Below, in pieces: positions 18,580 to 62,209 of a stretch of DNA of 64,000 nucleotides. The notes below the pieces were generated by a model, which was given only the letters and a program-made list of their open reading frames with translations, had not been told where the DNA came from and searched no databases. The DNA is from Agelas oroides. Its lineage: Eukaryota > Porifera > Demospongiae > Agelasida > Agelasidae. The stretch's first letter is position 1, and every line of letters starts with the position of its first letter. Both the position numbers and the translations under genes were made by a program. The stretch lies in NCBI GenBank assembly GCA_949130485.1, contig OX422204.1:558001-622000 (forward strand), in the 5' to 3' direction.

Positions 18580-18660
18580 ATTCTGCTTCTTGGTGCGCAC
18601 TATTTAGAACCACACTGGTGCACATCATTTAGAACAGCTCTCCTCGACCGGTCGTCCACC
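18580..18660. promoter_or_regulatory. 81-bp bidirectional promoter, PEX3 / NAA10
   Basis: Only 81 bp separate the divergent PEX3 and NAA10 start codons. Two related segments (GCGCACTATTTAGAACCACA and GCACATCATTTAGAAC) sit inside it and may be a duplicated initiation element. Confidence 0.6.
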
Positions 18661-19708
18661 ATGAACGTCAGGCAGGCCCAAGTGAGTTTGACCGTCTGCT
18701 TCCCTGATTGGAACATGCTAGGATTATCGTCCCTCCCCCTGCCCAGCCGGAAGACCTGCTGAACATGCAGCACTGTAACCTGCTCTGCCTGCCTGAGAAC
18801 TACCAGATGAAGTACTACTTCTATCATGCCCTCTCCTGGCCTCAGCTCTCCTATGTTGCTGAGGATGAGAAGGGACGTATCGTGGGATACGTGCTCGCCA
18901 AGATGTAAGCTTCGTTCTCAATGCTTGATTGTTTAATGATCGATGGTTGCCATTATAGTCTTCACCGTCTCTCCCTCCCTCACATAGGGAAGAAGATCCC
19001 GATGACGTGCCACACGGCCACATCACATCACTGGTAAAGTGCTGCTGATGTTCCCTGTGCCGGGTTTTGGGGTGATGTTCCCTGTGCCGGGTTTTGGTTC
19101 AACTCAATCACTCCTTTTCCCTCCTGATTTTCTGCTCATCTTGCAGGCAGTAAGGCGAACACACAGACGGTTGGGCCTGGCACAGAAACTGATGGACCAG
19201 GTATGTTGGCTCCTATCGTAGTCAACTGTCCCAGACTAGAGTCTCCGAAGTGAATCTGCTTCTGTTGTTTGATTTGCCAAGTCTTCAAGAGCAATGGTGG
19301 AGTGTTTTGGAGCCAAGTATGTCTCCCTACATGTGCGAGTGAGGTGAGACTGAGCATACCATTGATATTGGGAGGTTAAGATCTAGCAGAGCTGATAGTT
19401 GTCTCATTCTCCCTTTTTTCCAGCAATCGAGCTGCCCTACACCTCTATGAGAACACACTTCACTTCAAGTAAGTAGTCAACTTCACACTTTTACTAGTGA
19501 TTGTCCCTCACCCCTTTCCCCTTGATCCCTCCCTCATGCACACAGGAAAGAGGACATTGAAGCCAAATACTATGCAGATGGAGAGGATGCATATGCAATG
19601 AAGCGGAGTCTAACGAGTCTGGCAGAGCAGATCGAGAAAGAGAAGGAGGCCCAGAAACGACGGCTCATCAGTTCACAGGCCAGCAGCAAGCCCTCCACTG
19701 ACACATAG
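18661..19708 (+). CDS. NAA10: N-alpha-acetyltransferase 10, NatA catalytic subunit
   Basis: Seven exons (18661-18681, 18747-18904, 18988-19033, 19147-19200, 19282-19343, 19424-19468, 19546-19708) give 182 residues. NAA10 acetylates N-termini co-translationally as part of NatA at the ribosome. The GNAT fold is clear: [20 protein letters not shown], then [20 protein letters not shown] and YVLAKMEE. The acetyl-CoA motif RRLGLA is at about 82-87, followed by [34 protein letters not shown] and [13 protein letters not shown]. The C-terminal tail is Lys/Gln/Ser-rich, as in animals. A tandem GTTCCCTGTGCCGGGTTTTG duplication lies in the third intron. Confidence 0.96.
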
Positions 19709-19797
19709 ACAGTGTTTGTGTTTGCTTGCAGTTTGAAGGATTTGATCATATGACCAAACATTGTCATTGTTCCTGCAGTCACAAAGCTGTGCAGTGG

Positions 19798-20816
19798 TTA
19801 GCTGGCAGCCAGGGGACAGTGGAAGTGGGTGTGTATGGCCTCAGCACTTGCACGACCCACCACTGCTGAAAGGTCCTACATGTAGACAAAGAAAGGAATC
19901 AGTAATTTACCACTTCCCATAAACACAAGATGTGTGTCGATGTACCTCAACTGAAGCTTCTGATATCCTCCTTAAACCTGCAGCATCAAGAGCTTCCTCA
20001 CAAACAGGCACATTAATTTACTGTCCATCACACTCACTTTCAAACTTGCTGAGCAGCAGTTTCGCCTTTTTACTGCCCATCTTTGGCAGAGCCTGCACAG
20101 CCAACAGGAGTGCATTGTCCACAGAAGGAGGCTGGAGAGCCGGAAGTGCCCCTCCATCTGGACGACACTGCTGCCGCACCTGGGAAGGAAATATGTACCA
20201 TTGATCATTGGTCCATACTTAGCAGTGGTGCACATTAAAGGCTGACGATTTGAATGATGTGGTGTGCAGCTGAGGCTAGTGATTGCACAGGGATGGTGAC
20301 TAGAGTCAACTGGATGGTGGCCATCTCCTGCAATGAACCGAAGTACTGTCTGCTCAGTGCGGTGCACTCTGCCAGCACAATCCCCTGACAACGACACTGC
20401 AGGAGAACACACTCACATGAGATGACACAGTGTAACCCTGGAGTCCTCTAGCCAACCTTGCTAAGAGCGGTCAGCCTTTCTCTGATGGACGGCAAGAGAT
20501 TGATGACCTCTGACTCAGGCAGGAACACACAGGCAGCACCTGCAGTGTACACATCAGCACAGCCAGGCACCTCCTCAAGGTGCACTTTTAACGCACCTGG
20601 AGGGGACATTGCTGCAGTTCACACAATCAACAGGTGGGGGAGGGCCTTTCGTCTATAATTTTAATAAGCACACTTCCGCTATTGAGCCTATTCGCTTTCC
20701 TTGAGATCTGTAAGCTGATGTGGCTCACCCTTCAACGTTGTGTGTAGTTCAGTTCCGCGAAACTTGTCACTCAGCACCACTGTGCCAGTGGGGACTTGCA
20801 CAAGAGCAGACGACAT
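19798..20816 (-). CDS. FAAP24: FAAP24, Fanconi anemia core complex protein
   Basis: Six exons (complement of 19798-19875, 19946-19977, 20038-20179, 20247-20396, 20457-20596, 20729-20816) give 209 residues (human 215). FAAP24 pairs with FANCM and helps load it on branched or single-stranded DNA. The N-terminal nuclease-like pseudo-domain has VLSDKFRGTELHTTLKGALK (human IVANEKWRGSQLAQEMQG), followed by CRCQGIVLAECTALSRQYF and TLVTIPVQS. The C-terminal helix-hairpin-helix pair has VQALPKMGSKKAKLLLSKF and ISEASVEDLSAVVG. The family is modestly conserved, but the order and length fit well. It converges with NAA10 and diverges from the OTU gene. Confidence 0.88.
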
Positions 20817-20855
20817 CTTGCACTTTGACCCTTGAATGGAATATTGAACTGAAAA
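20817..20855. promoter_or_regulatory. 39-bp spacer between divergent start codons (FAAP24 / OTU gene)
   Basis: Only 39 bp separate the two ATGs. Either transcripts begin with almost no 5' UTR, or the transcription units overlap through each other's first exon. Confidence 0.6.
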
Positions 20856-23748
20856 ATGCTTCCCGGTAGCGGTGGTGGCGTACCTCAACTAAAAACGACC
20901 CTCTCGCACGTGTCGCCCGACAAGGCGGCGCAGATCCGGTCCGCTGTGACGGGTGCGCTGCAACGTCACCCGCAGACAGGTCTGTTTTGCTTCCAGCGGA
21001 CTGTTGAGACCACCTTCGTCCTCCCGTGGGACCTCAACCCCAAGGTATGTGCCACGCCCACTTTTGCAAATGGGACGTGGGTAGTTAACTTTCCAGTGGA
21101 GAAACTGATCTGCAACGTTTATGGAACTGAGATTAATGGTTCCATATGCTCTCGACAGGTGCAGCCAATGAAACTCAGTGCTGCAGTGCGTGATGGGGTT
21201 CGCACAGAGCTGCTGGACTCAGCCTCCTTGCAGCACTTGGAGGCGTGTAGAGCCATCAATTGGAGCAGCACAGTGCTGTGGCAGTGCAGGAAACGGGAGG
21301 CAGAGAAGGATCAGTGGATAGCGGCTAATGAAAGCATTTGTAGTCACTTAGAAGCAGGGTACTGTGAGGGGCCTGCCCAGCTCCGGAGCTTCATGGCTGG
21401 CTTCACAACATTCCAGGTAGACTACAACACTGGTAGACTACTCAAGATTGTCTCCAATGAACTGTTTGATATTCGAAGACTGGCACTGGCTCCACTCATG
21501 CCAATGAAGGTATTTACTTGTGTTTGTCAGTCATCAACCAAGTTGGCAACTTGAGAACAGAGTCCCCTCTTTCTTCCTCCTTCCTCTCAGACAGAGCATG
21601 ACAGCCACTCACTCTTCCATGCTGCCTCCCTTGGGTTCTGGGGTGTGCATGACCGCACGGCCCTTCTTTCCCAGGCAGTGAGCTGTACGCTGGCAGACCC
21701 TAAGGCTCAGTTCCTCGTCTACAAGCACTGGAGCACAGAGACTAACCGGAGCACACCTTCAGGGATACACCCGGTGAATGTACCAGCTGGATACATATAG
21801 ATTGTGGTGTGTGTACTTTGTGGGAGCAGGTGTGGCCACAGGGAGGGGGAGGGGCGTGAGTACTAATGCTTGTGTTGCTTCACAGGCATTTCCACAGTGG
21901 GAAGAGGCCAAGGCAAACCTCAGAGGGACACCTCAGCTCCACATCTTCACTCTTGCAAATGTCGTACAGCGGCCCATCATCGTCTATGCCCATCCAGAGT
22001 GCACTGTTGGGTAGGTGAAGAAACAATCGTCTGCTTGTGGAGACATAACCCTTTCTTATTCCTCCCACACAGTGGTGTCTATCTTCCCCTCCTGTGGGAG
22101 AGCCCCCCTGGACACTTTCCCTGCCACACCCACCCACACCTCAGGAGCCCCATTGCCCTTGGCTATGATGGTGAGCTCCATACAGCAAACTGTTAGCCTC
22201 GGTCCCAGGCCTCCCCCGTTTTACCTTCCGTTTGCGTTCACAATAATACACAGGAGCGGAAGACCGGCGTTATTGTGAATGCAAACAGTAGCCTCGTTCC
22301 CAGGCTCTCCGGAACGCAAATTGTACACGCGTGGAGAGCTAGCCTGGTATCTTTTCTACGTAGGCATGACGTAATCGAAATAGGACTAAAACAGAACGGC
22401 AACGTTTTGCACGTTATTCAACCAACTATGCGTTCAATGCTCGGTGTGTATGATATTCGCTCCCCGATAACTAGATACATGTAGTAAGTTGGCCGCTACC
22501 TTTGCTCTTTTTCCTATTCTGAGTCTCGGGTACGCCCACGCGCAATTAAGGTTGTTCTACCTCCGTTCTATCTTTGAGGGTTCTCACGTGAGAAAAAATA
22601 CCAGGCTCTCTCCGCATGCACAAGTTCAATTTCGCGTTCCGGAGCGGAGGAGCCTGGGAATGAGGCTACGCAAACAGAAGGTAAAACAGGGGAGGCCTGG
22701 GACCGAGGCTAGCAAACTGTGCTGAATTAATTATGTACCAGTGTGTGGTCGTCCCGTCCAGCTCCCCATAACCACTTCAGTCCACTGGTGACATTTAAGG
22801 TATGTTGCACACGCCTCTACACTCTTGCAAACTCCTTGCAGAATCCTAGACTCTTAGTCCCACAGTCTCCACAATATAGACTCCACAGGATTGAGCACTC
22901 TCTCTCCCTCTGCAGAGTCCAGACACGATCCTCCTTCCTCTCAGTTTCCCTAATGGACAGCTGCTCAAAATTCACTTCCTCTCTGAAGCTCAGGTGAAGA
23001 CCTATCCATCTGTACCACCATTGAGCTATTGAGCAGGTTATCCCCCCTCACACACACAAGGCACAAAGAGACCCTACGTCCCTCCTGTCACAGCTGATGT
23101 CGGTGGACCTTTTCCCTCCTCCAGCTCAATCCGCAGCCACACAACCAGCAAACAGTGCGTGTGCAATGGTATTACAGAGCTTGTTCCTCCACTTTATTCT
23201 CCACACCTCTCCACACACCTCTCCACACACACACTCTCCACACACCTCTCCACACACACACTCTCCACACACCTCTCCATACACACTCTCCACACACCTC
23301 TCCTCACACACACTCTCTTAGTGCTGGAGGCGCAGACAGCATTTGGAGGTGAGATCTTTCAGAGGGGTAGGAGCAAGTTGAGAAGAGGGGGGGGCGAGTT
23401 AAGAAGGGGGCGTGCGTAGCATGCCCCTTCTAGGGGGGTCTGGGGGCATGCTTTCAAAAGTGGGGGGGCAACTGCCCCCCCTGCCCCCCCTTCTCCTACC
23501 CCTCTGTCTTTGCATGTAACTTCTGCACTAGCCACCAGCTTAGCCTCGTACCCAGGCTCCTCCCAATTTTTCTACATGGGGAGGAGCCTGGGTACGAGGC
23601 TACACCAGCTATCATGTGACTCCCTCTCCCTGTAGGGAATGCAAGTGACACTACTCACCCTCCCACCATGGTGGCCATCTCAACTGCTTCAGAAATGCCA
23701 GAAGTCATGGACTTATTAGTTAAACGCTACCAAAGTATGTTTCTGTAG
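20856..23748 (+). CDS. A20/Cezanne/TRABID-like OTU protein lacking the catalytic Cys
   Basis: Ten exons (20856-21044, 21159-21509, 21591-21773, 21886-22010, 22073-22170, 22762-22799, 22916-22993, 23094-23168, 23330-23348, 23636-23748) give 422 residues in phase; the last three junctions are the least certain. An N-terminal segment (QRHPQTGLFCFQRTVETTF) precedes a helical region (KLSAAVRDGVRTELLDSASL) like that before the OTU fold of A20 and Cezanne. The OTU core has ASLGFWGVHDR, LHIFTLANVVQRPIIVY, GVYLPLLWE, SPIALGY and NHFSPLVTF. Where active members read GDGNCLxHA, this one reads HDSHSLFHA: Ser187 replaces the nucleophilic Cys, while Asp184 and His320 remain. It is predicted not to be a cysteine protease; ubiquitin binding may survive. 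No zinc fingers are seen. The 591-bp intron 5 holds two nested mobile elements. Confidence 0.85.
22194..22711. mobile_element. Inverted-repeat element (outer) in OTU gene intron 5
   Basis: Inverted ends of about 43 bp begin TAGCCTCGGTCCCAGGCCTC and end with the complement, GAGGCCTGGGACCGAGGCTA. The 9-bp flanks are identical, GCAAACTGT at 22185-22193 and 22712-22720: a clear target-site duplication. The interior has its own smaller palindrome around TTCACAATAA / TTATTGTGAA. It is interrupted by the inner element. Confidence 0.92.
22289..22668. mobile_element. Inner inverted-repeat element nested in the outer one
   Basis: The left end, TAGCCTCGTTCCCAGGCTCT followed by CCGGAACGC, pairs with the right end GCGTTCCGGAGCGGAGGAGC, which runs on to TGGGAATGAGGCTA. 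It is flanked by TGCAAACAG and CGCAAACAG (9 bp, one mismatch). It shares the TAGCCTCG end with its host, so it is the same family or superfamily. Confidence 0.9.
23195..23318. repeat. CTCCACACAC minisatellite
   Basis: Degenerate tandem units of about 30 bp built from CTCCACACACCTCTCCACAC, within OTU gene intron 8. Confidence 0.8.
23541..23602. mobile_element. 62-bp perfect hairpin, minimal TAGCCTCG element
   Basis: TAGCCTCGTACCCAGGCTCC facing GGAGCCTGGGTACGAGGCTA over a loop of about 20 bp. CACCAGCT (8 bp) is repeated directly on both sides. It is essentially two terminal repeats with nothing between. Confidence 0.9.
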
Positions 23749-24790
23749 CAATCTGTTCCTTTTATGTTCGGCAATTTGGAATATATTTTATACACTTCAA
23801 TTTCTGGTGCAAATAGTCTCGTCCCCAGACCCCACCCTCTCACGAGAAACGGTCTGGTGAATTGAACTAAGTCGAATTTCTTGGGCTAGCGCACGCTTTT
23901 ACAATGCATAGATTATTAACCTCACTTTTTTTTTATTAAAACTCAAACGTAACTTAAGTACAATCCCACAATCGCATGCACCATTGCGACGCATTTACGG
24001 CGTTATTTCTGTACATGAACAATCAACGAACCACATCTCCCTTATAAAACAGGCCTAGATGTTATCAGGAGCTTAAGAACCGCTATGCAAGAAGGAGCGC
24101 AGACTAGTGTACCCATCCTGTATTGAATCACACCTCAAAACGCGCCTTATATGGGTTTAACCTACTCGTGCTAATGAGCTTTGAGGTTACTACCGCGACT
24201 ACTAAGGATTCTCAAGAGCCCGCCTGCTGTGACAATAGCCACCTGCTTGGCTTCTTAACGAAGTAGGTGCAAACATACAGCTACCTTATAAGGCGCGTTT
24301 TGGAGGCGCCAAATTCGGGAGAGGATGGAACCAACCAATGTATGGTAGTTTTACGCTCCTTCGCGGCGCTCATAAGCTCCTGATGTTATGCAAAGTCACC
24401 CACTGCGCAGGACGCGTTTCGGCCAATACCAGGCCTCATCAGCTGCGCTGGGGTGACCGGGAGATGGGGGCTGCCATATCATGCACAGAATGCAGTCAGG
24501 TGGCTGGCCTTATTCAAAAGTCGGTAGAGACTCCGATCTTCGAAAGCACCGTCTCTTCGTGTAGCTGTTCTTCGTGAGAACGTGCAGCTGTCTTGTACAT
24601 GATTACAGCTTTCAAATTTGCGCATAGCGCATGCGTCCGACTTCTGGGCATGCGCACATGCACACTTGCTGTGTCCTTGGTAATACTGAGAGTGCAGTAG
24701 CTTCCGGCTTTGGTGACAAATTCGCTTCTCTGATTGGTCAAACCGCAGTAGGGACGGTACGGTACGGCCGTACGGCGCGGCGGTTCGGAG
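23749..24790. other. Intergenic region with a long imperfect inverted repeat
   Basis: No coding sequence is supported. A long imperfect inverted repeat spans about 24058-24386: TCAGGAGCTTAAGA / TCATAAGCTCCTGA, then AAGGAGCG / CGCTCCTT, CCATCCT / AGGATGG and AAAACGCGCCTTATA / TATAAGGCGCGTTTT in nested order. It looks like a foldback element. A solo TAGTCTCGTCCCCAGACCCC end lies at 23815. The stretch 24600-24790 before the next ATG is rich in CpG and palindromic CGTACGG and is the probable promoter of the secreted-protein gene. Confidence 0.65.
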
Positions 24791-25342
24791 ATGATGAAGG
24801 CGTTGTTGCTGCTCTCTTTGGTGGTAGGAATATGCCTTGCGAAACCCGTCGAAAGATTTCATAAGAAACATTGGAAAGGTGACTAAAATAAAATTAGACA
24901 ATGTGGGGCTGCAGTGTTGATACTGGTGGTACGTTTGGCGTGTAGGTTGGAGCGACCGCTTGGAGACGGAAGAGTTGAAGGATATTGGATCAGGCCGATA
25001 CTATGAGAATGGTGAGCTTGCTCAAGCATACTGTGTTTAGTGTGCTAGTACAGTACTGTACTCCCTGTGCAGATATTGGCGAGCCAATTGACAGTGAACC
25101 AGATGCTGACGTCGAGTATGAGGAGCTGCTTCCACGCCACGGTACGTAACTGCATGTTGCGTTACCGTCCAAAGTTTTTCCATGGTATGTATTTAGCTGG
25201 GGATTGTTTGCTATCTGTAGGTTCATGTGTACATCCGGAGACAAAGCATTCAATAGCCGTGGGCTCCTTTGACTTCAACTACGAATCCTGTCTCCTCTGC
25301 CAGTGTCCCAATGGCAAACTGAAGTGCTCTCACACTTGCTGA
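24791..25342 (+). CDS. Small secreted protein with a VWC-like cysteine motif
   Basis: Four exons (24791-24878, 24946-25011, 25073-25141, 25221-25342) give 114 residues in phase. The N-terminus (MMKALLLLSLVVGICLAKPV) is a textbook signal peptide with likely cleavage after GICLA. The mature protein is short and acidic in the middle (DSEPDADVEYEELL). It ends in a cysteine cluster, YESCLLCQCPNGKLKCSHTC, spaced like the core of a von Willebrand factor C domain (CxxCxC...C...C). There are six cysteines in all, the first in GSCVHPET. Known single-VWC proteins are secreted signalling or matrix factors, but the assignment here is only by motif. It is probably a lineage-specific secreted peptide. Confidence 0.75.
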
Positions 25343-53400: not shown

Positions 53401-54441
53401 AGACAATCAGAGGTCATGTCATTGTATACCAACCAGATGGACCATTGGTCATCACCTTCTGTTTGGAAAGCACCTCCGAGTGACCCAGAGACGCTCGTGT
53501 GTTGGTTGACTCCAGTTCTGCAGAGAAAACATTCACACAACTCATCAAACACAACCTTCCTCCCTCCCTCCCTTCCTTCCTTCCTTCCCTCCCTTCCCTC
53601 CCTTCCCTCCCCTCCCTCCCTTCCCTTCCCTTCCCTCCCTCCCTCCCTCCCTCCCTTCCCTCCCTCCCTCCCTCCCTCCCTCCCTCCCTCCCTCCCTCCC
53701 TCCCTCCCTCCCTCCCTCCCCTCCCCTCCCCTCCCCTCCCCTCCCCTCCCCTCCCTCCCTCCCTCCCTCCCTCCCTCCCCTCCCTCCCTCCCCTCCCTCC
53801 CTCCCTCCCTCCCACTCTTTGCTCACCCTGTCTTGCCCTTGAAGTGGCCTGGTCTGCCTTCATCCGTAGCTCAGACTCTCGTCTCAACTGGTCCTGGGTT
53901 TCCTCCAGCTGTCTTCGCAGAGCCGACAGCTCCCCCTGCATGGAGGACTGCTCTCGGTCAAATTCTGCACGCAGGGTTGGGATCTGAGACTCATTCAACT
54001 CCAGCTCCCTCGCCCGTCTCTTCACTGTCTTCAACTGTGAGCGCAGGGACCCTAGCTCTCGTTGCACAAGGGCATTCTGCTCATGAAGGGAGTCACTCTT
54101 CAGTTCTGCTGCCTTCCGCAGTTCAAGAGCCTTACGTGTCTTCTTCCTCTCCTATGTGAGAGTGCGAGGAGGTGACAAAGGGAGGGTGTGAAGGTGTGAG
54201 GAGGGTGAGGTTAACTCACAGCTTCCACAAGCATGTTCACATCGCCCTTTGAGCGTTCCATCTCCAGGACCCTCATGCCCAGCTTGGACCGAGACTTGAC
54301 CTCAGTCTCCCAGAGTCCCCGTGCCTCCTCTGCCTCCCTCTCTGCTCGCTCAAGGGCTGTCTTTGTCTTCTCCAGTTCCTCCCGCACTACCACTGCCTCC
54401 TCCTTCAGCTGGGAGGCAGTGGACTCAAGACTAAAGCGAAT
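50438..54441 (-). CDS. ANKRD26-like coiled-coil protein, C-terminal part
   Basis: Minus-strand exons 50438-50463, 50600-50678, 50978-51098, 51691-51785, 52570-52722, 52821-52877, 53070-53138, 53333-53392, 53456-53517, 53827-54151 and 54220-54441 join in phase to about 355 residues with a stop at the end. Almost all is coiled coil (EELEKTKTALERAEREAEEA, REESELRMKAD-like heptads, KTERQNRKLREELKALQ). The segment ARQELNGKLEEVNTHLEQQ, then SQAQEALERLRASSES, ELYESELQRSEQLNRRLQ and VRSELDKSIARHL, resembles the C-terminal coiled coil of ANKRD26/CCDC144 proteins (human QELNEKLxEVNLFLQ..., YKELYxEELKxRKSL...), which act at centriole distal appendages. The 5' part, including any ankyrin repeats, is lost at the gap (54469-54668). 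Family assignment is moderate because coiled coils can mislead. Confidence 0.65.
51915..52090. mobile_element. MITE with inverted repeats of about 55 bp
   Basis: ACAGACCTTTTCAGGTTGGT (left) and ACCAACCTGAAAAGGTCTGT (right) are exact complements. The arms continue to GCTGCAGAGTAGCAAATCAC / GTGATTTGCTACTCTGCAGC. Total about 176 bp, no coding capacity. A diverged copy lies at 47095-47310. Confidence 0.9.
52878..52998. repeat. Minisatellite abutting a splice acceptor
   Basis: About three copies of a unit of 38-41 bp with GTGGTAGGATGGAGTGGACA and GACCCAAGAACAC. On the sense (minus) strand CCATCCTACCAC directly precedes the AG acceptor of exon 52821-52877, so each copy duplicates the acceptor's pyrimidine tract. 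Confidence 0.85.
53183..53320. repeat. GGGAGG purine array (sense CCTCCC)
   Basis: GAGGGAGGGGAGGGGAGGGA-type repeats in the intron between exons 53333-53392 and 53070-53138. Pyrimidine-rich on the coding strand. Confidence 0.88.
53559..53814. repeat. CCCTCC/CCTTCC array
   Basis: A run of about 255 bp of CCCTCC, CCTTCC and CCCCTCC in the intron downstream (minus sense) of exon 53827-54151. Here the coding strand is purine-rich, unlike most arrays in the window. Confidence 0.9.
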
Positions 54442-54468
54442 CTGCAGGACAAGGGCCCACCTATAAAC

Positions 54469-54668
54469 NNNNNNNNNNNNNNNNNNNNNNNNNNNNNNNN
54501 NNNNNNNNNNNNNNNNNNNNNNNNNNNNNNNNNNNNNNNNNNNNNNNNNNNNNNNNNNNNNNNNNNNNNNNNNNNNNNNNNNNNNNNNNNNNNNNNNNNN
54601 NNNNNNNNNNNNNNNNNNNNNNNNNNNNNNNNNNNNNNNNNNNNNNNNNNNNNNNNNNNNNNNNNNNN
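54469..54668. other. Assembly gap, 200 N
   Basis: Exactly 200 N, a conventional placeholder. True distance, order and orientation across it are not shown by the sequence. It cuts the 5' end of both neighbouring genes. Confidence 0.99.
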
Positions 54669-54669
54669 A

Positions 54670-57600
54670 GACTACCAGCTGTCAACCACGTTTGCCTCAG
54701 CGCACTGGTTCTTCCCTCCTGCCATAACTCAGCACCTCTCCCACTACCGGTGGGCCATTCTGCGAGCTGTGGGGGGTGACACCTCAAATCTTATCTTGGT
54801 GAGAGCATTTGAGAATGTTGGCCGACAGACGCTGGCTGCAGCCGGGGGCTTGGTGCTTAGGGAGGGCGAGCTCTACGTCTCTGCCGTACAGCCCTGCTAC
54901 GCTAGCTCCTGCCTCCCTCCAGTCTACTCAGATGGTTTCCAGGTAGCCACACGTCCCGGTTCCACATACATCAATGCCTCATACACACCTCTGGAATGGA
55001 ATGGGGACACTGGAACCAGTTCAGTAGGAACGCTCCAGATTTCCTGGCCACCATTCACTGACCCCCGACTGACCTATTACGAGTGGTCCCTTGGAACGGG
55101 AGACCTGGGATATGAATTACTGATTTACTGGAACCGGGTCGAGTGGTTTGAAAACCAGGTCTTGATACCAGTGAGTGAAACTGTATCCCTGCACACTCGT
55201 AATACGGTAACACTACGAGGGTACAACATGGCTGGTCTACACTCGAGTGTAAGTACCTCACTGTACTGGAACGTGAGTGGAGAGGTCTTGCCACAAGAGT
55301 CTGTTCCACGCTCCCCACGCGTGGTGCTAGACATTTCGGAGTCGCAGGCTGTGATACCGCGGACAGTCGACTGGAGGCAGCTGGAATATCAGGAGGGAGC
55401 TCCAAGAGACATTGAATACACCAACTCCACGTCCTCCCTCTCAGCAGCCTGGCCTCTTCTGCGGTACAAAAGATACCGCTATTCAATCTCCGCCACACCC
55501 ACCTTCAAACTATGCACACCCCCTAGTCCCACATGTGGGTCAACAATCGCTAATGCAGTCACAGTGAACAACCTTCAGCTCACTAACGGACAGATGTACT
55601 TTGTATGTGTGCAAGCCTTGGGAACAGACGCCATTCACCCGACCACCTCCACTCCTGCTGTTCTCACAGCCTGTAGTAACGGAGTGACGGTGGACCCCAC
55701 GCCACCCGAGGGAAGCTGTGTGCAGATTGTTCCCCCTCGGTTGAACGAGAGTGCCACCCTGGGCAGTGGCGGTGAGCCCAGTTCTCTGGGGCCCCTGCTA
55801 CCCACCTTGCACGAGTGTGCAATGAACAGCTCTCAGTTCCAAGTCTCTACGTCTGAAATTCACATAATTTGGAACCAGTTTCTGGACGTGGAGCAGTATG
55901 GAACTGCAGTTCATGCTACTGGAGTGGCTTATTATGAGTATGCAATAGGTGAGGAGGCGAATTGTAGCTTTGAAGGTTGTAATTTCATTCATTTTCACAT
56001 TTCAAATATGTCTAGGTACCTCACCCCGAGCTGTGGATGTGGTTGGGTTCACTTCAGTGGGCGTGGCCACAGAGGCTATTGCCAGGGGGCTGTCCCTGCA
56101 ATCAGGACACACTTATTATGCAACTGTCAGAGGTAAACAAAATACAAGAACAACAAACAACAATCAACAAATTACTTATACATAAAATGTTTCTGTTATG
56201 CGTACATCCACATCTACCGACTTTTAATGTGTCATTTGTCATCTTCTTCATAGCTTATGATTTTGTTGGTCAGTGGAGCGATGTCGTATCAAGCGGTGTC
56301 ACCGTTGACACCAGCCCACCTGCTGTCACACGTCCATGGCTGGAGGGCACCACAGATCGTACACAGCCCCTCAGACTGAGGTGGGAGCCGGTGAGGGAGT
56401 GGGAGAGTCAGGTGGAGAGTGTGGAGTGGGGGGTGGGGTCCCGGCCCGGCTCCAGTGACCTGCAGGGATGGACCGTGGCCAACACAGGGGAGATCTCTGG
56501 AGCTGCCAGTGTGGGGGAGAGACAGGATGGACGGCTGGTGTTCCTCTCTGTGAAGGTGAGCCATCACCAACTAGAGTAAGATGGAAGCATGTTAGTCACT
56601 CCCTCCCTCCCTCGCTCCCTCCCTGCCTCCCTCCCTGCCTCCCTCCCTCGCTCCCTGCCTCGCTCCCTCCCTGCCTCCCTCCCTGCCTCCCTCCCTCCCT
56701 CCCTCTCTTGCTCCCTGCCTCCCTCCCTCCCTCGCTCCCTCCCTGCCTCCCTCCCTCGCTCCCTCCCTGCCTCCCTCCCTCGCTCCCTCCATCCCTCTCT
56801 CTTTCTTTCTCACTCTTTAGGCTCAGAATGGTGCTCTCCTCTCCTCTCTTGCCGTCTCACCGGGCTACATCCTCGACTCCTCACCACCACTCAAAGGGAG
56901 TGTCTATGACGGCCCTCGACCTGGGGCAGGTGATATCCTGGACCTGGACTACACGACAATCCCTGGAGAACTCAGCGGCCACTGGGAAGGGTTCTCAGAC
57001 CCACACACTGGCGTGGCAGAGTACCTCTGGGCCATAGGCTCTTGTGCTGGGTGCAGTGACATGCAGACCTTTACAAGTGCAGGGATCGCTACTGGTAATG
57101 CCCCATGTTGTCTGCACAGTATATTATGGCTTAGTGTATTTAGCACTGTTCAGAGACCCTTGCCCATCGCTTGTAGTATACCCATCTCCTAATTTACCAT
57201 GCTGCAAGCGACAGAAAGCTGGCTGGGGGCTTGGAAACGAGGCCAAGGACGTTTTCATCCCATTGTTAATGTGTAAACGTGTGTTGCATGGTTACTGATG
57301 TGTTCTGTTCCATTCCTCAGAGGTGACACGGACCGGGCTCATGCTCACAAGCGGAAGGAGATACTACATCACTGTTCGAGGATGCAACTCTGTTGGCCTC
57401 TGTTCTGAGGCTTCGTCCAATGGGATCACAGTCGATGTGACTCCGCCTATTGCTGGCCGGGTCTGTGATGGTTACAGTGGGCCAGACCTCCAATTTCAAG
57501 CCTCAAGGTAAAGGAGTGTAGGATGTGAGGGTGTGAGGGTGTGAGGATGTGAGGGTGTGAGGGAGACCTTGTCAGGAGTGTAGGGTGTGAGGGAGACCTT

Positions 57601-60600
57601 GTCAGCAAAAACCTCACTCTCCACACATCCCACTCCTCACACACTCCCTCCTCATACATTCCACTTCACACACACCTTCCCTCCACACACACCTCCCTCC
57701 CCACACACACCCCCTCCCCACACACACCCCCTCCCCACACACACCCCCTCCCCACACCCTCTTCCCACCCAGGACTCTTATCTCTGCCCACTGGCACAGT
57801 TTCCATGACTCCCAGTCATCCCTGCAACACTATGTGTATTATGTTGGCCTGGTGCCCAACGACAGCTCAATCATTCGCCCAACCCTCCTCCCCCCTTCAG
57901 AATCCTCCCTCCTCCTCCCAGCTCCCATGCTACTGCCCATCAATCGCAGAGTGTACACAACACTCGTCGCCTACAACAGAGCCGGCCTGTCTACCACTGT
58001 CAGTTCAGATGGTGTGTACATTGATGACACGCCCCCTCAGTCCATCGGACCTGTTACCATAGACACACAGTGGGCGGGGTCAGCCAGTATGGCAACACAG
58101 TACAGCAGTTCTGTGGTGAGGGTGACATGGGGGTTCACAGACACGTTGACTGCCATTAACCAACACTTCTGGAGCCTTGTTTCTCGTGAGGGAGTGCGTG
58201 TACCCCTGCCAGGCAAGAATGCTGGCTCCCAGAACTATGGTACATGTGTTGGTCTACAGCTGGCAGACGGGGAGTCCTACTCGGCACGGGTAACAGCCTG
58301 CAACACAGCTGGACTCTGTCTTCAGCAGACCTCCGCCCCAGTGCTTGTAGATTCCTCGCCACCCATTGATGGTTACTTTGCAGTTCGAACCAATTCAGCA
58401 GCTGAGATTGACCGCACTGTCCCCGGAGGAATGACGTGGAGGAATCGTCCAGTACGAGGGTACGCTCAACTCAACATTGCCTTCCTGGGTTTCTCAGACC
58501 CCCACTCAGGCATCGCAGAGTACTGGGCGACAGTTGGCTCAAGCTACAGCGGGAGTGACCTCACGTCTGGGGCCATTCGTCTCCAGTCCTCCCTCGCCTC
58601 TCAGAGTGGCACCCGCCTAGCTCTGGTGATACTGACAAGGTTGTTGGACCTTCGAGAGCTGGTGTACGTCTCGATTTGGGCTGTAAATGGTGCCGGACTC
58701 AGGAGCCACATTGTGCAGGGTAGTTTTAGTTTGGACCCTCTCCCGCAGAACCCTAACAACGGCTCTCTGGTCCTTGTCCGTTCCTTCACATGCACGCCTG
58801 AATCCTGTCTTGGCCACTGTACATGTGCTGCAAGGGGCCAGCTCTGTAGTGCTACTCCAGCCTTACTGTCCTCCTGCCAGCCTCTCAATGCCGCTTCCCT
58901 CTCTTCAAACATGCTGCTTCGAGTTTATAATGTTGTTCCACAGTTGAGAGCAGGTGCTGACATGAGCGTACTGTTTACAGCTGTGACCGACAAGCTGGAG
59001 GGGCGCTGGGAGAGCGTGGAGCCGAGGTCAACTGCCTTCCAGCGACTAGAGTGGTCTGTTGGGGAGAAAGGCTTCACACCCGGTGCCGGACTGATTGACA
59101 CCATCAATGATGCAATATGGCGGGATGCTGGTACTAGTTTGACAGCTGTCTTCACCGTCTCTTCCTCCTACCCACTCCAGCACGGAGTGGCGTATGTCTT
59201 CCATGTGAGAGCCTGGTACAGTAACAGCACGTATGCTGTGTTCTCCTCGGAGGGTGTGACCGTAGACACTGCGGGGCCGGAGGTACCCCGTGGGCTGAGA
59301 GTGAGGGAGACTGATGAAGAGTTTGGCAGTCAAGTGGACATTGACTTCACTTCAAATGCGTCACAAGTCGCCACTTCGTGGGATGGTGTTTTCGTTCCGT
59401 TCTTAACTGGAAACTATTCAACGTTTGAGGTTGGGCTGGGAAATGTACCAGAAACAGGAAATGTCGTTTCCTTCAGTCCTGTCCCATCTGGTACCACCTC
59501 CACACTGCTGGCAGCCTCAAGCCTCCGCCAGGCACAGAGATACTACGCCACTGTTCGAGCTATCAGTCCTCTTGGGATCACGACGACCTCCATCTCTGAT
59601 GGTTTTGTCGTAGACCTAACTCCTCCTAATGTGGGAGTTGTCCTGGACGGCCTACGTTACCATGACGCAAGAGCTCAGAGCAACACAAGTTCCTATTCTG
59701 CCAGGTGGTTTGGCTTCAATGACCCGGAGTCGGGTATCCACCATTATGAAGTTGCTGTGACTCCGACCATCTCCCCACCAGACAAGTCCAGCTACCATGA
59801 CGTGGGGATCCGACTGAAGGCAACCCTGAATGGACTGAACTTAACTCAAGGACAAACGTACTATACTCACATAGTTGCTGTAAACATGGCAGGTCTTCGG
59901 TCACAGAACATTGTCTCCAGTGGTAGAGTCATTGATACGACTAAGCCCTCCGGTGTTCAGTGTGTAGCTTATGGTATGGAGAGCTTAGCAAACCCCTCCT
60001 TTGAGGGTGTCACAGGCCCTTCCATCCCCTGCAGTATGGTCACAGCTGACGCTGCTACCCAAGGATGGACACTGGGTGTGTCATATACAGCAGTTCTGTC
60101 CTCCAGTGCAAGCTTTGATCCATTTGGCGATGGCTGTACCAGTTTGTACTTTGTTGGAGCAGTTTCTCAGATGTTCTCCACGACCCCCGGTACCTCCTAT
60201 ACCCTCGGCTTTGCTCTCAGGAGATTCATTTCTGAGGACTCGGAACACACTGCAATCTTCCAGGCTAGGGTAACAGCACCTGGCTTGCAACACATTGTCA
60301 CCATATCAACAGTTGTTGATTCGTGGCAGAGATTTGAGTTTGTGTTTGAAGCAGTTGAACTGACATCTGAAATAGTTCTGAGCACACTGAATGATCAGTA
60401 TGGCCTAATTGTGGATGAGGTCAGTGTGCGGTCATGCATGGGTGAAGTTGAGCTTGTTTCATCTGATATTATTGCACAGCGGTGGTCTGGTGTAGTCAGC
60501 GTTTCAACAGAGTACATCTCCATGACTACCACTCGCTTGTACGCAAACTGGAACATACGAGACTCCGAGAGTGGGGTGAGGGAGTATTTGTGGGCCATTG

Positions 60601-62209
60601 GTACTGTCCCCGGGGGAGAACAGCTACAGCGGTACACGTCAACTGGCAACACCAGACACGGTGTCAGCGTCAACCTGTCTCTGACTCACGGCACTAGAGT
60701 GTATGTCTCTGTGTTGGGCTGGAACTATGCCAGCCTGGAGAGTGTGGTGTACTATGACCCCTATGTTGTGGACTTTACCCCACCTGCTGTTGGGGGAGGG
60801 GTGTTGGATGGTATGGGAGATGAGGACGTGCAGTATCAGAGCTCAGCCGTGGTGGCAGCCAGCTGGGAGGGGATCACAGACCCAGACAGTGGGATCTCCT
60901 CTTGCCGATGGGCCGTTGGTAGGTTGGGGTACAGTAAAGGTACTAATTGTGAGGGTCCACCCACAACCAAGTACTGGAAATTGTATACAATAAACAATAC
61001 ATGTTTATCCAATGAATGTCAGATCTTAAATGAATTCTTAAATTATTTGTATCAGCTTCTCTTTCATTTGGCTACTTGGCTCCGTGATTTTAACCCTCTG
61101 GTGCTTCTCTGCAGGAACCTCACGAGGGTCTTCTGACATCCAGTCGTTCATGCTGTCCAGCAACTCTAATGGGACCACATCTGACCTGCGACTGGCTCAC
61201 GGCGCTACCATCTACGCTACAGTTGTGTGCACAAACGGTGCTGGACTGCGCACCACGGCCTCCTCCAATGGGGTCACCATACTGACAGACCCTCCCCTCC
61301 ATGCTAACGCCTTTGGGCGTACCTCTAGTCCTGTCCTGACAGAGTACGAGCCACGCGGTGGGTACATCCCAACCAATGACACCATCCTAATGTGGGACGG
61401 GTTCGTAGAGGAGGCAGGGACCCCTCTCACGTACGAGGTACGAGTCATAGAGTCGGGTGTCCCGCAGCAGTGGAACAGTGTCGGCTTTGCTAAGATGCTG
61501 ACACTCAGTGACCTGCAGCTGCCGGAGAATGTCCCCCACACCATTGAGGTCCGGGCAGTCAACCTGGCTGGGCTGGCCAGCCAGCCGCTGACGATGAACG
61601 TCACCATTGGCTCCACCCCTCCCATAGATACAGGTATGGTGTGAGTAGCCTAGCCCCTCAAGCAGCTCTCGGTCAATTGCAAGAGTGGCGGAAAGCTGGT
61701 GAGGGCAACAGGTCGTCATTACCCAGTGTAAGAGAGTGGAAATGTAGTTGGGACATTTCGAAGTGTCCTGAATGTACAGGTGTTCTCATTTCAGGGTTTG
61801 GGAGTTCCACTGCGCGGTATAATGAAGGAGGTGGTTTTTGCAAAACATAATGCTAAGTTTTTAGGTCATGTGGGCCCCAAATCTACCATTTATGGTAATC
61901 ACTCTGTCTCTCTGTTCATTTGCAGGTGCCACAATCAATTCCTCCTGGACGTCTGGCAATACTCTGCTCCTAGACTGGGGAGACAAGTTCATCTCCTCCA
62001 CTCCCCTCTACTACGAGTTCTCCATAGGCACACAGGTGGGTAGTGGGAGTGTGACCCAGTGGCTCGAGACCGATCAGACCACGGTGGTCCTCACCAACGC
62101 TAGACTGAGTCATCAAAGAGACTTCTTCTTGACTCTCACTGCCATAGGTAGCTCAGGACTGCACACAAACACTAACACAATGGTACCGGGTATGCCGATC
62201 ACAGGGTAG
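54670..62209 (+). CDS. Giant extracellular beta-sandwich repeat protein, 5' end missing
   Basis: Eight exons (54670-55948, 56016-56132, 56254-56555, 56821-57094, 57321-57507, 57773-60918, 61115-61633, 61926-62209) join in phase to 2035 residues and a stop. The N-terminus is lost in the gap. About ten units of roughly 190-210 residues repeat the pattern WxGFxDPxSGIxEYxWAIG ... LxxGxxYYxTVRAxNxAGL ... SxGVxVDxTPP. Examples: DPHTGVAEYLWAIG, GRRYYITVRGCNSVGL, SNGITVDVTPPIAG, DPESGIHHYEVAV, SDGFVVDLTPPNVG, DPDSGISSCRWAVG. They look like paired fibronectin-III-type sandwiches. One stretch (codons at about 59976-60440, NPSFEGVTGP to YGLIVDEVSVRSC) resembles a DUF642-type galactose-binding module. 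N-glycosylation sequons are frequent. No transmembrane segment is seen at the C-terminus, so it is probably secreted. The donor at 60918 has an in-phase alternative at 60939. Confidence 0.85.
56597..56800. repeat. CCCTCCCTGCCT array
   Basis: About 200 bp of CTCCCTCCCTGCCTCCCTCC-like units in the intron just before the acceptor at 56820; pyrimidine-rich on the coding strand. Confidence 0.9.
57508..57771. repeat. GTGTGAGGGTGTGAGG and CACACACCCCCTCC tandem runs
   Basis: This intron begins with GTGTGAGGAT-type repeats and ends with four CCCTCCCCACACACACC units before the acceptor at 57772. Confidence 0.8.

Follow-up and report, generated by a model that had tools for sequence, protein, structure and literature searches.

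The A20-like OTU subfamily is given in one source as A20, Cezanne, Cezanne2, TRABID and VCPIP (PMC3705208). Pseudo-OTUs are already known. OTULINL (FAM105A), whose human OTU domain has lost an intact triad and stands alongside an active relative, is described as a pseudo-OTU that supposedly mediates protein-protein interactions (PMC7862380; PMC3705208), and vertnin has been named as an inactive OTU-like homologue (PMC10318531). In addition, the exchange of the catalytic Cys for Ser in TRABID C443S is reported as an artificial mutant that traps chains via the NZF fingers (PMC7948964).

Here we describe a gene of the sponge Agelas oroides whose predicted product would share a broken OTU site with OTULINL, the same Cys-to-Ser exchange with TRABID C443S and inactivity with vertnin, in the last case a likeness by description. 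OTULINL is placed by its sources in the OTULIN subfamily, with triad positions Asp139/His350/His352 and a predicted membrane motif, whereas the sponge protein is A20-like, has Ser in place of Cys and carries an insert. Among the matches listed in our literature searches, as titles and abstract openings with few subscription journals, there was neither an A20-like pseudo-OTU nor an OTU with a WWE insert.

Structure of the gene

The window, that is, the whole 64,000-nt stretch analysed, corresponds to C22:558001-622000 of a 259-Mb assembly of 141 contigs. Modelling from splice signals yielded an OTU gene of 11 exons on the plus strand (20856-24126), encoding 440 aa in one open frame. All its introns are GT-AG and measure 62-591 nt, and an in-frame TGA at 20850 lies immediately 5′ of the ATG at 20856. 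When the bases of the coding sequence were shuffled, none of 2000 shuffles remained open. The model is a splice prediction on one assembly, in which the PDB alignments span exons 3-7, the alignment of the relatives spans the beginning of exon 2 and, less firmly, exon 10, and exons 1, 8, 9 and 11 come from frame and splice signals alone. The sequence-only reading had delimited an OTU protein at 21591-22799; this span does contain exons 3 to 6 but is only a part of the gene, and the N-terminus, the C-terminal exons, the WWE-like insert of exon 2 and the loss of the loop Gly were absent from it. The features of the gene are:

20856..21044, +, exon 1, aa 1-63, N-terminal region without family match (frame and splice signals alone)
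21159..21509, +, exon 2, aa 64-180, helix with Asp83, AINW, then the insert (model, relatives' alignment)
21264..21494, +, insert with the putative WWE-like domain, aa 99-175 (Pfam, HMM, hhalign, relatives' alignment)
21591..21773, +, exon 3, aa 181-241, catalytic loop TEHDSHSLFHA (model, PDB alignments)
21603..21605, +, Ser185 (AGC), replaces the loop Gly (model, four-relative alignment)
21609..21611, +, Ser187 (TCA), replaces the catalytic Cys (model, PDB and relatives' alignments)
21886..22010, +, exon 4, from aa 242, LHIFTLANVVQRPIIVY core (model, PDB and relatives' alignments)
22073..22170, +, exon 5, GVYLPLLWE ... SPIALGYD (model, PDB and relatives' alignments)
22194..22711, +, MITE-like element in intron 5, not coding (inverted ends, target duplication)
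22762..22799, +, exon 6, APHNHFSPLVTFK, holds the catalytic His320 (model, PDB and relatives' alignments)
22916..22993, +, exon 7, LLPLSFPNGQLLKIHFLSEAQ (model, PDB alignments)
23094..23154, +, exon 8 (splice signals only)
23322..23348, +, exon 9, 27 nt, the least certain exon (splice signals only)
23636..23734, +, exon 10, PEVMDLLVKRYQ, weakly resembles the C-terminal helix of the relatives (model, relatives' alignment)
24053..24126, +, exon 11 including the stop codon TGA (splice signals only)

Intron 1 (21045-21158, 114 nt) is stop-free in frame, and its retention would insert 38 residues without breaking the frame. A gene on the minus strand (19970-20816), which we take to be FAAP24-like, is arranged head to head with it; 39 bases separate the ATG of this gene, read from 20816, from that of the OTU gene, and a common promoter is likely. 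Further upstream exons of the OTU gene are unlikely because the start of the antisense gene is so close. A Pfam search with two pieces of this antisense gene gave no match. Upstream of the OTU gene, a plus-strand gene at 18660-19710 presumably encodes a NAA10-like N-acetyltransferase.

A predicted member of the A20-like OTU subfamily

The assignment to the A20/Cezanne/TRABID group, already proposed from the sequence alone, was borne out by phmmer searches of the PDB, which matched the protein to OTUD7B (7.5e-16), A20 (6e-13), ZRANB1 (2.9e-11) and VCPIP1 (1.3e-4). This similarity goes far beyond chance and places the predicted protein, in fold and ancestry, within the A20-like OTU subfamily. 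The Pfam OTU model scored 22.9 bits on the whole protein and 23.6 bits on aa 64-440 without the insert, with a cut-off of 23.3 bits. In common with the subfamily, the protein has the OTU core, His320 and the motifs NW, HIF.LAN..RP, GVYLPLLWE and HFSPLV. Unlike the subfamily, it has Ser in place of the catalytic Cys and of the loop Gly, lacks two stretches of the core, bears an insert before the catalytic loop and shows no zinc finger, AnkUBD, UBA or VCIP135 N-terminal domain.

The domains that distinguish the single members of the group were each looked for. Pfam found no NZF, AnkUBD or zf-A20 in the 440-aa protein. Regarding TRABID, which has NZF and AnkUBD before the OTU, there was no Pfam match in aa 1-98 and a stop precedes the ATG; a TRABID ortholog was rejected, since no NZF or AnkUBD was seen while the TRABID-like locus of the same genome has both. 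With respect to A20/TNFAIP3, no zf-A20 match follows the OTU within the protein; a zf-A20 regular expression applied to 22800-24800 matched once, in a proline-rich stretch within intron 9. Pfam detected neither the UBA before and zf-A20 after the OTU typical of Cezanne/OTUD7, as present at L037, nor the VCIP135 N-terminal domain of VCPIP1, which L036 does have.

Replacement of the catalytic Cys

Exon 3 (TEHDSHSLFHAASLGFWGVHDR) encodes the catalytic loop through the codons GAC (21600-21602, D184), AGC (21603-21605, S185), CAC (21606-21608, H186) and TCA (21609-21611, S187). In five phmmer alignments, two with OTUD7B and three with A20 sequences, S187 is paired, with no gap, with the DGNC Cys, in agreement with the sequence-only reading, which had taken the protein for an OTU with the catalytic Cys replaced by Ser. 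It had the codons right and located the Cys-replacing Ser three bases too early. The ZRANB1 match begins only at residue 193 and so starts beyond S187. The nucleophile position of an active OTU cysteine protease is hence occupied by Ser187, and Ser185 stands in the column of the loop Gly, which is invariant in all four relatives of the same genome.

The catalytic His is retained as His320, in a column that does not vary among the four relatives. The third active-site residue of A20 is given as Asp70 or Thr97 (PMC10284599). In the PDB phmmer alignment Thr181 aligns with chain position 97. Asp83 lines up with an Asp in the A20-like protein of this genome, which we take to be the equivalent of human A20 Asp70. 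Both candidates, Thr181 and, with that equivalence, Asp83, are thus present. Of the two residues previously named as kept, His320 stood, whereas Asp184 corresponds to the Asp within the DGNC loop motif.

The TCA codon differs at two positions from TGC and TGT; therefore, a single miscalled base would not explain it, and the loss is probably old enough for a further change to have followed. We also considered that a Cys might be kept under another alignment, as had been raised earlier. This was rejected, TEHDSHSLFHA having no Cys and the alignment no gap; the sole Cys that the protein shares with all four relatives, C300, lies away from the loop.

Related OTU loci in the genome

A search of the genome with the protein, in which 10 candidates were scored and weaker relatives may be missed, gave 14 matches, nine to the gene's own exons and five at four distant loci with identities of at most 40%. 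Within this scope the gene is present once, and a recent duplicate was rejected, as all non-self matches lie at those four loci. The Cys-bearing paralogue that the earlier reading had suggested looking for was found four times over; the labels are taken from domains:

L038, A20-like: OTU, zf-A20
L037, Cezanne-like: UBA-like, OTU, zf-A20
L035, TRABID-like: NZF, AnkUBD, OTU in pieces scoring 17.0 and 19.8 bits
L036, VCPIP1-like: VCIP135 N-domain, OTU

The OTU pieces of L035 remain below the cut-off because they are split over exons, and the pieces at L035 and at L037 are assumed to be one gene each. The catalytic Cys is present in all four. With Pfam OTU as the query, the genome yielded 79 matches with E values of 0.001 or lower, the window gene not being among them; its own Pfam OTU match is split and weak. 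Scans of viral contigs with exon 2 (10 pattern matches) and of genome contigs with the whole protein (13 pattern matches) returned no relatives.

Over aligned residues, the protein is identical to the A20-like protein at 79/269, to the OTUD7-like at 81/285, to the TRABID-like at 76/237 and to the VCPIP1-like at 51/176. It appears about equally distant from all four, at ∼28-32% identity, which argues that the gene is old. Among the 34 residues that do not vary between the four active relatives, 24 are kept and 10 are changed or missing, and of the 63 invariant in A20, OTUD7 and TRABID the protein keeps 41; the earlier view that the core around the site is in large part conserved was thus upheld, and its corollary, that this conservation argues against decay, is plausible. 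The VCPIP1-like piece matches 34/63, a lower bound and no fair yardstick because the piece ends soon after its HFIPLV. Alignment with the active relatives showed that the protein is without the stretch after PQWEE, which in them carries an invariant Trp and Ala, and without most of the loop before GVYLP. From these comparisons, sequence loss appears not to be general, yet divergence exceeds that of A20 and OTUD7. In a five-taxon tree the branch of the window protein measured 1.32, compared with 1.28 for TRABID, 1.70 for VCPIP1, 0.82 for A20 and 0.46 for OTUD7. The tree grouped the window protein only tentatively with TRABID (split support 55) and united OTUD7 with VCPIP1 (support 93), a grouping that we distrust because the VCPIP1 and TRABID pieces are partial.

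Two further sets of OTU matches were observed. Ten of them (L004-L013), on eight contigs, share an identical motif region (ISGDGNCLFRALAFVLYGNE) and might represent either an OTU gene on a mobile element or a recent expansion. At L017 (1501-1758, minus strand), within a 177-aa open frame, the motif reads GDENFLFSS with Phe at the Cys position; this is a second OTU match without Cys in the genome and may be a decayed copy.

A long insert preceding the catalytic loop

An insert of 77 residues separates AINW (aa 95-98) from LMPMKTEHDSHS; the A20-, OTUD7- and TRABID-like proteins have only 6, 9 and 11 residues at this point, and the VCPIP1-like protein aligns poorly there. WWE was the only Pfam family matched in the region, with 14.0 bits (E 0.066) for the whole protein, 17.1 bits (0.0074) for exon 2 and 18.3 bits (0.0032) for the insert alone, scores that do not reach the curated cut-off of 21.1 bits. 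With an HMM built from six WWE domains of known structure, the insert scored 13.5 bits and the whole protein 9.6, and one of 20000 shuffles (17469 reported) reached the score of the insert. Two of the four relatives were reported by this HMM, at −1.2 and −1.3. Alignment of the insert with WWE by hhalign gave a probability of 50.3 over 28 columns; none of 500 shuffles reached its score, and the insert in reverse, like four segments from elsewhere in the protein, remained at probabilities under 1. Both sets of shuffles indicate a similarity to WWE beyond composition.

The insert and the WWE domains of RNF146, DTX1, Deltex, TRIP12 and HUWE1 have in common, in register, the core Trp, LE.aY.+G, AGF and IRR. 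The register extends by eye to the closing IRR, while the scored matches fall mainly in the first half. Compared with these domains the insert is far weaker, as true WWE domains left out of the same HMM scored 38-67 bits each. A PDB search with the insert alone gave one chance match (E 1.1). AF2 models made without alignment had a pLDDT too low to use, both for exon 2 (52.8), which showed a long helix where the WWE fold is expected to have strands, and for 21264-21509 (49.0), whose order of strands and helices could fit WWE. On balance, the insert is rather likely to be a diverged WWE-like domain.

The residues of RNF146 that bind ADP-ribose are reported to include Q153, Y107, R163 and Y144 (PMC8853533). 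At Q153, R163 and Y144 the insert has L, F and F in an alignment that is itself uncertain, and at Y107 it is not reliably aligned. Binding of PAR by the insert seems unlikely, and a dual reader of PAR and ubiquitin was rejected as the main reading because three ADP-ribose residues are not kept.

Possible role of the protein

We consider that the gene probably encodes a catalytically dead A20-like OTU that serves as an adaptor or binding scaffold. Without its Cys the protein would be unable to make the thioester and hence to cut ubiquitin chains. It would persist as a scaffold, in which the OTU fold and the WWE-like insert beside the dead site might offer surfaces for binding a partner, most probably a further protein of the ubiquitin pathway. 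Any ubiquitin binding via the OTU site would probably be weak because accessory domains and part of the relatives' surface are missing. Counted in favour are Ser187 together with Ser185, the kept core, the intact modelled frame and splice sites, the presence of the gene once, the Cys-bearing relatives, the WWE-like insert, a branch near that of TRABID and below that of VCPIP1, and the precedent of the pseudo-OTU OTULINL (PMC7862380). Counted against are the 10 of 34 core residues altered or missing, the greater branch length compared with A20 and OTUD7, the four exons drawn from frame and splice signals alone, an insert scoring far below true WWE domains and the chance that a Ser with intact His and Asp keeps slight activity.

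A Cys-to-Ser OTU could also act as a natural ubiquitin trap or decoy, holding chains and shielding them from the active relatives. The same exchange makes TRABID C443S a substrate trap (PMC7948964), and His320, Asp83 and Thr181 are kept here. This reading is weakened because trapping by TRABID C443S is reported to require functional NZF fingers (PMC7948964), of which none is seen in the window protein; moreover, OTULINL is reported without ubiquitin interaction (PMC7862380), and two core stretches are missing. For this gene a trap is rather unlikely, and we prefer a scaffold or regulator.

The losses of Cys, Gly and two stretches, the lack of accessory domains, a Pfam OTU score just under the cut-off and the branch exceeding those of A20 and OTUD7 would suit a decaying duplicate heading to a pseudogene. 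That is improbable for 440 codons without stop or frameshift and with good splice sites, in a gene that is old, judging by its distance from each relative, and yet still open; besides, the MITE is confined to an intron and the Ser codon, two changes away from Cys, speaks for a loss that is probably not brand new.

It is highly improbable that the protein is an active hydrolase with serine as nucleophile, despite the presence of His320, Asp83 and Thr181, as the loop Gly is also lost and we know of no OTU using Ser in this way. TRABID C443S, for its part, is reported to be catalytically inactive (PMC7948964). Finally, an assembly error or a mis-modelled exon, conceivable with one assembly and a predicted splice model, is hardly credible given the two changes separating TCA from TGC or TGT, the single finding of the exon in the 259-Mb, 141-contig assembly and the gap-free motif alignment.

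Going beyond the dead adaptor, it is possible, though doubtful, that the gene represents a fifth A20-like OTU lineage of long standing. Its product would be a pseudo-deubiquitinase that has a WWE-type domain set within the OTU fold next to the dead site and that takes part in ubiquitin-chain editing as a partner or allosteric regulator, not as an enzyme. All four human A20-like OTU types have a Cys-bearing counterpart in the genome, and the window gene is a fifth, Cys-less one. If conserved in related species, it would mean that the A20 branch has also yielded a pseudoenzyme and would let one test why an OTU fold persists after cutting has been lost. If a WWE-like domain does lie within an OTU, this would be a new joining of two ubiquitin-pathway protein modules.

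Other features of the window

The MITE-like element of intron 5 has inverted arms of 47 nt that are 94% complementary and is flanked on both sides by a ∼9-nt duplication, GCAAACTGT. A second inverted-repeat pair is nested within it. Its end motif occurred six times in the window and in none of 100 shuffles. Far downstream, 57591-61136 is an open frame of 1181 aa that by eye resembles repeated receptor-type segments; upstream of it, another open frame (54253-56136) includes a run of N.
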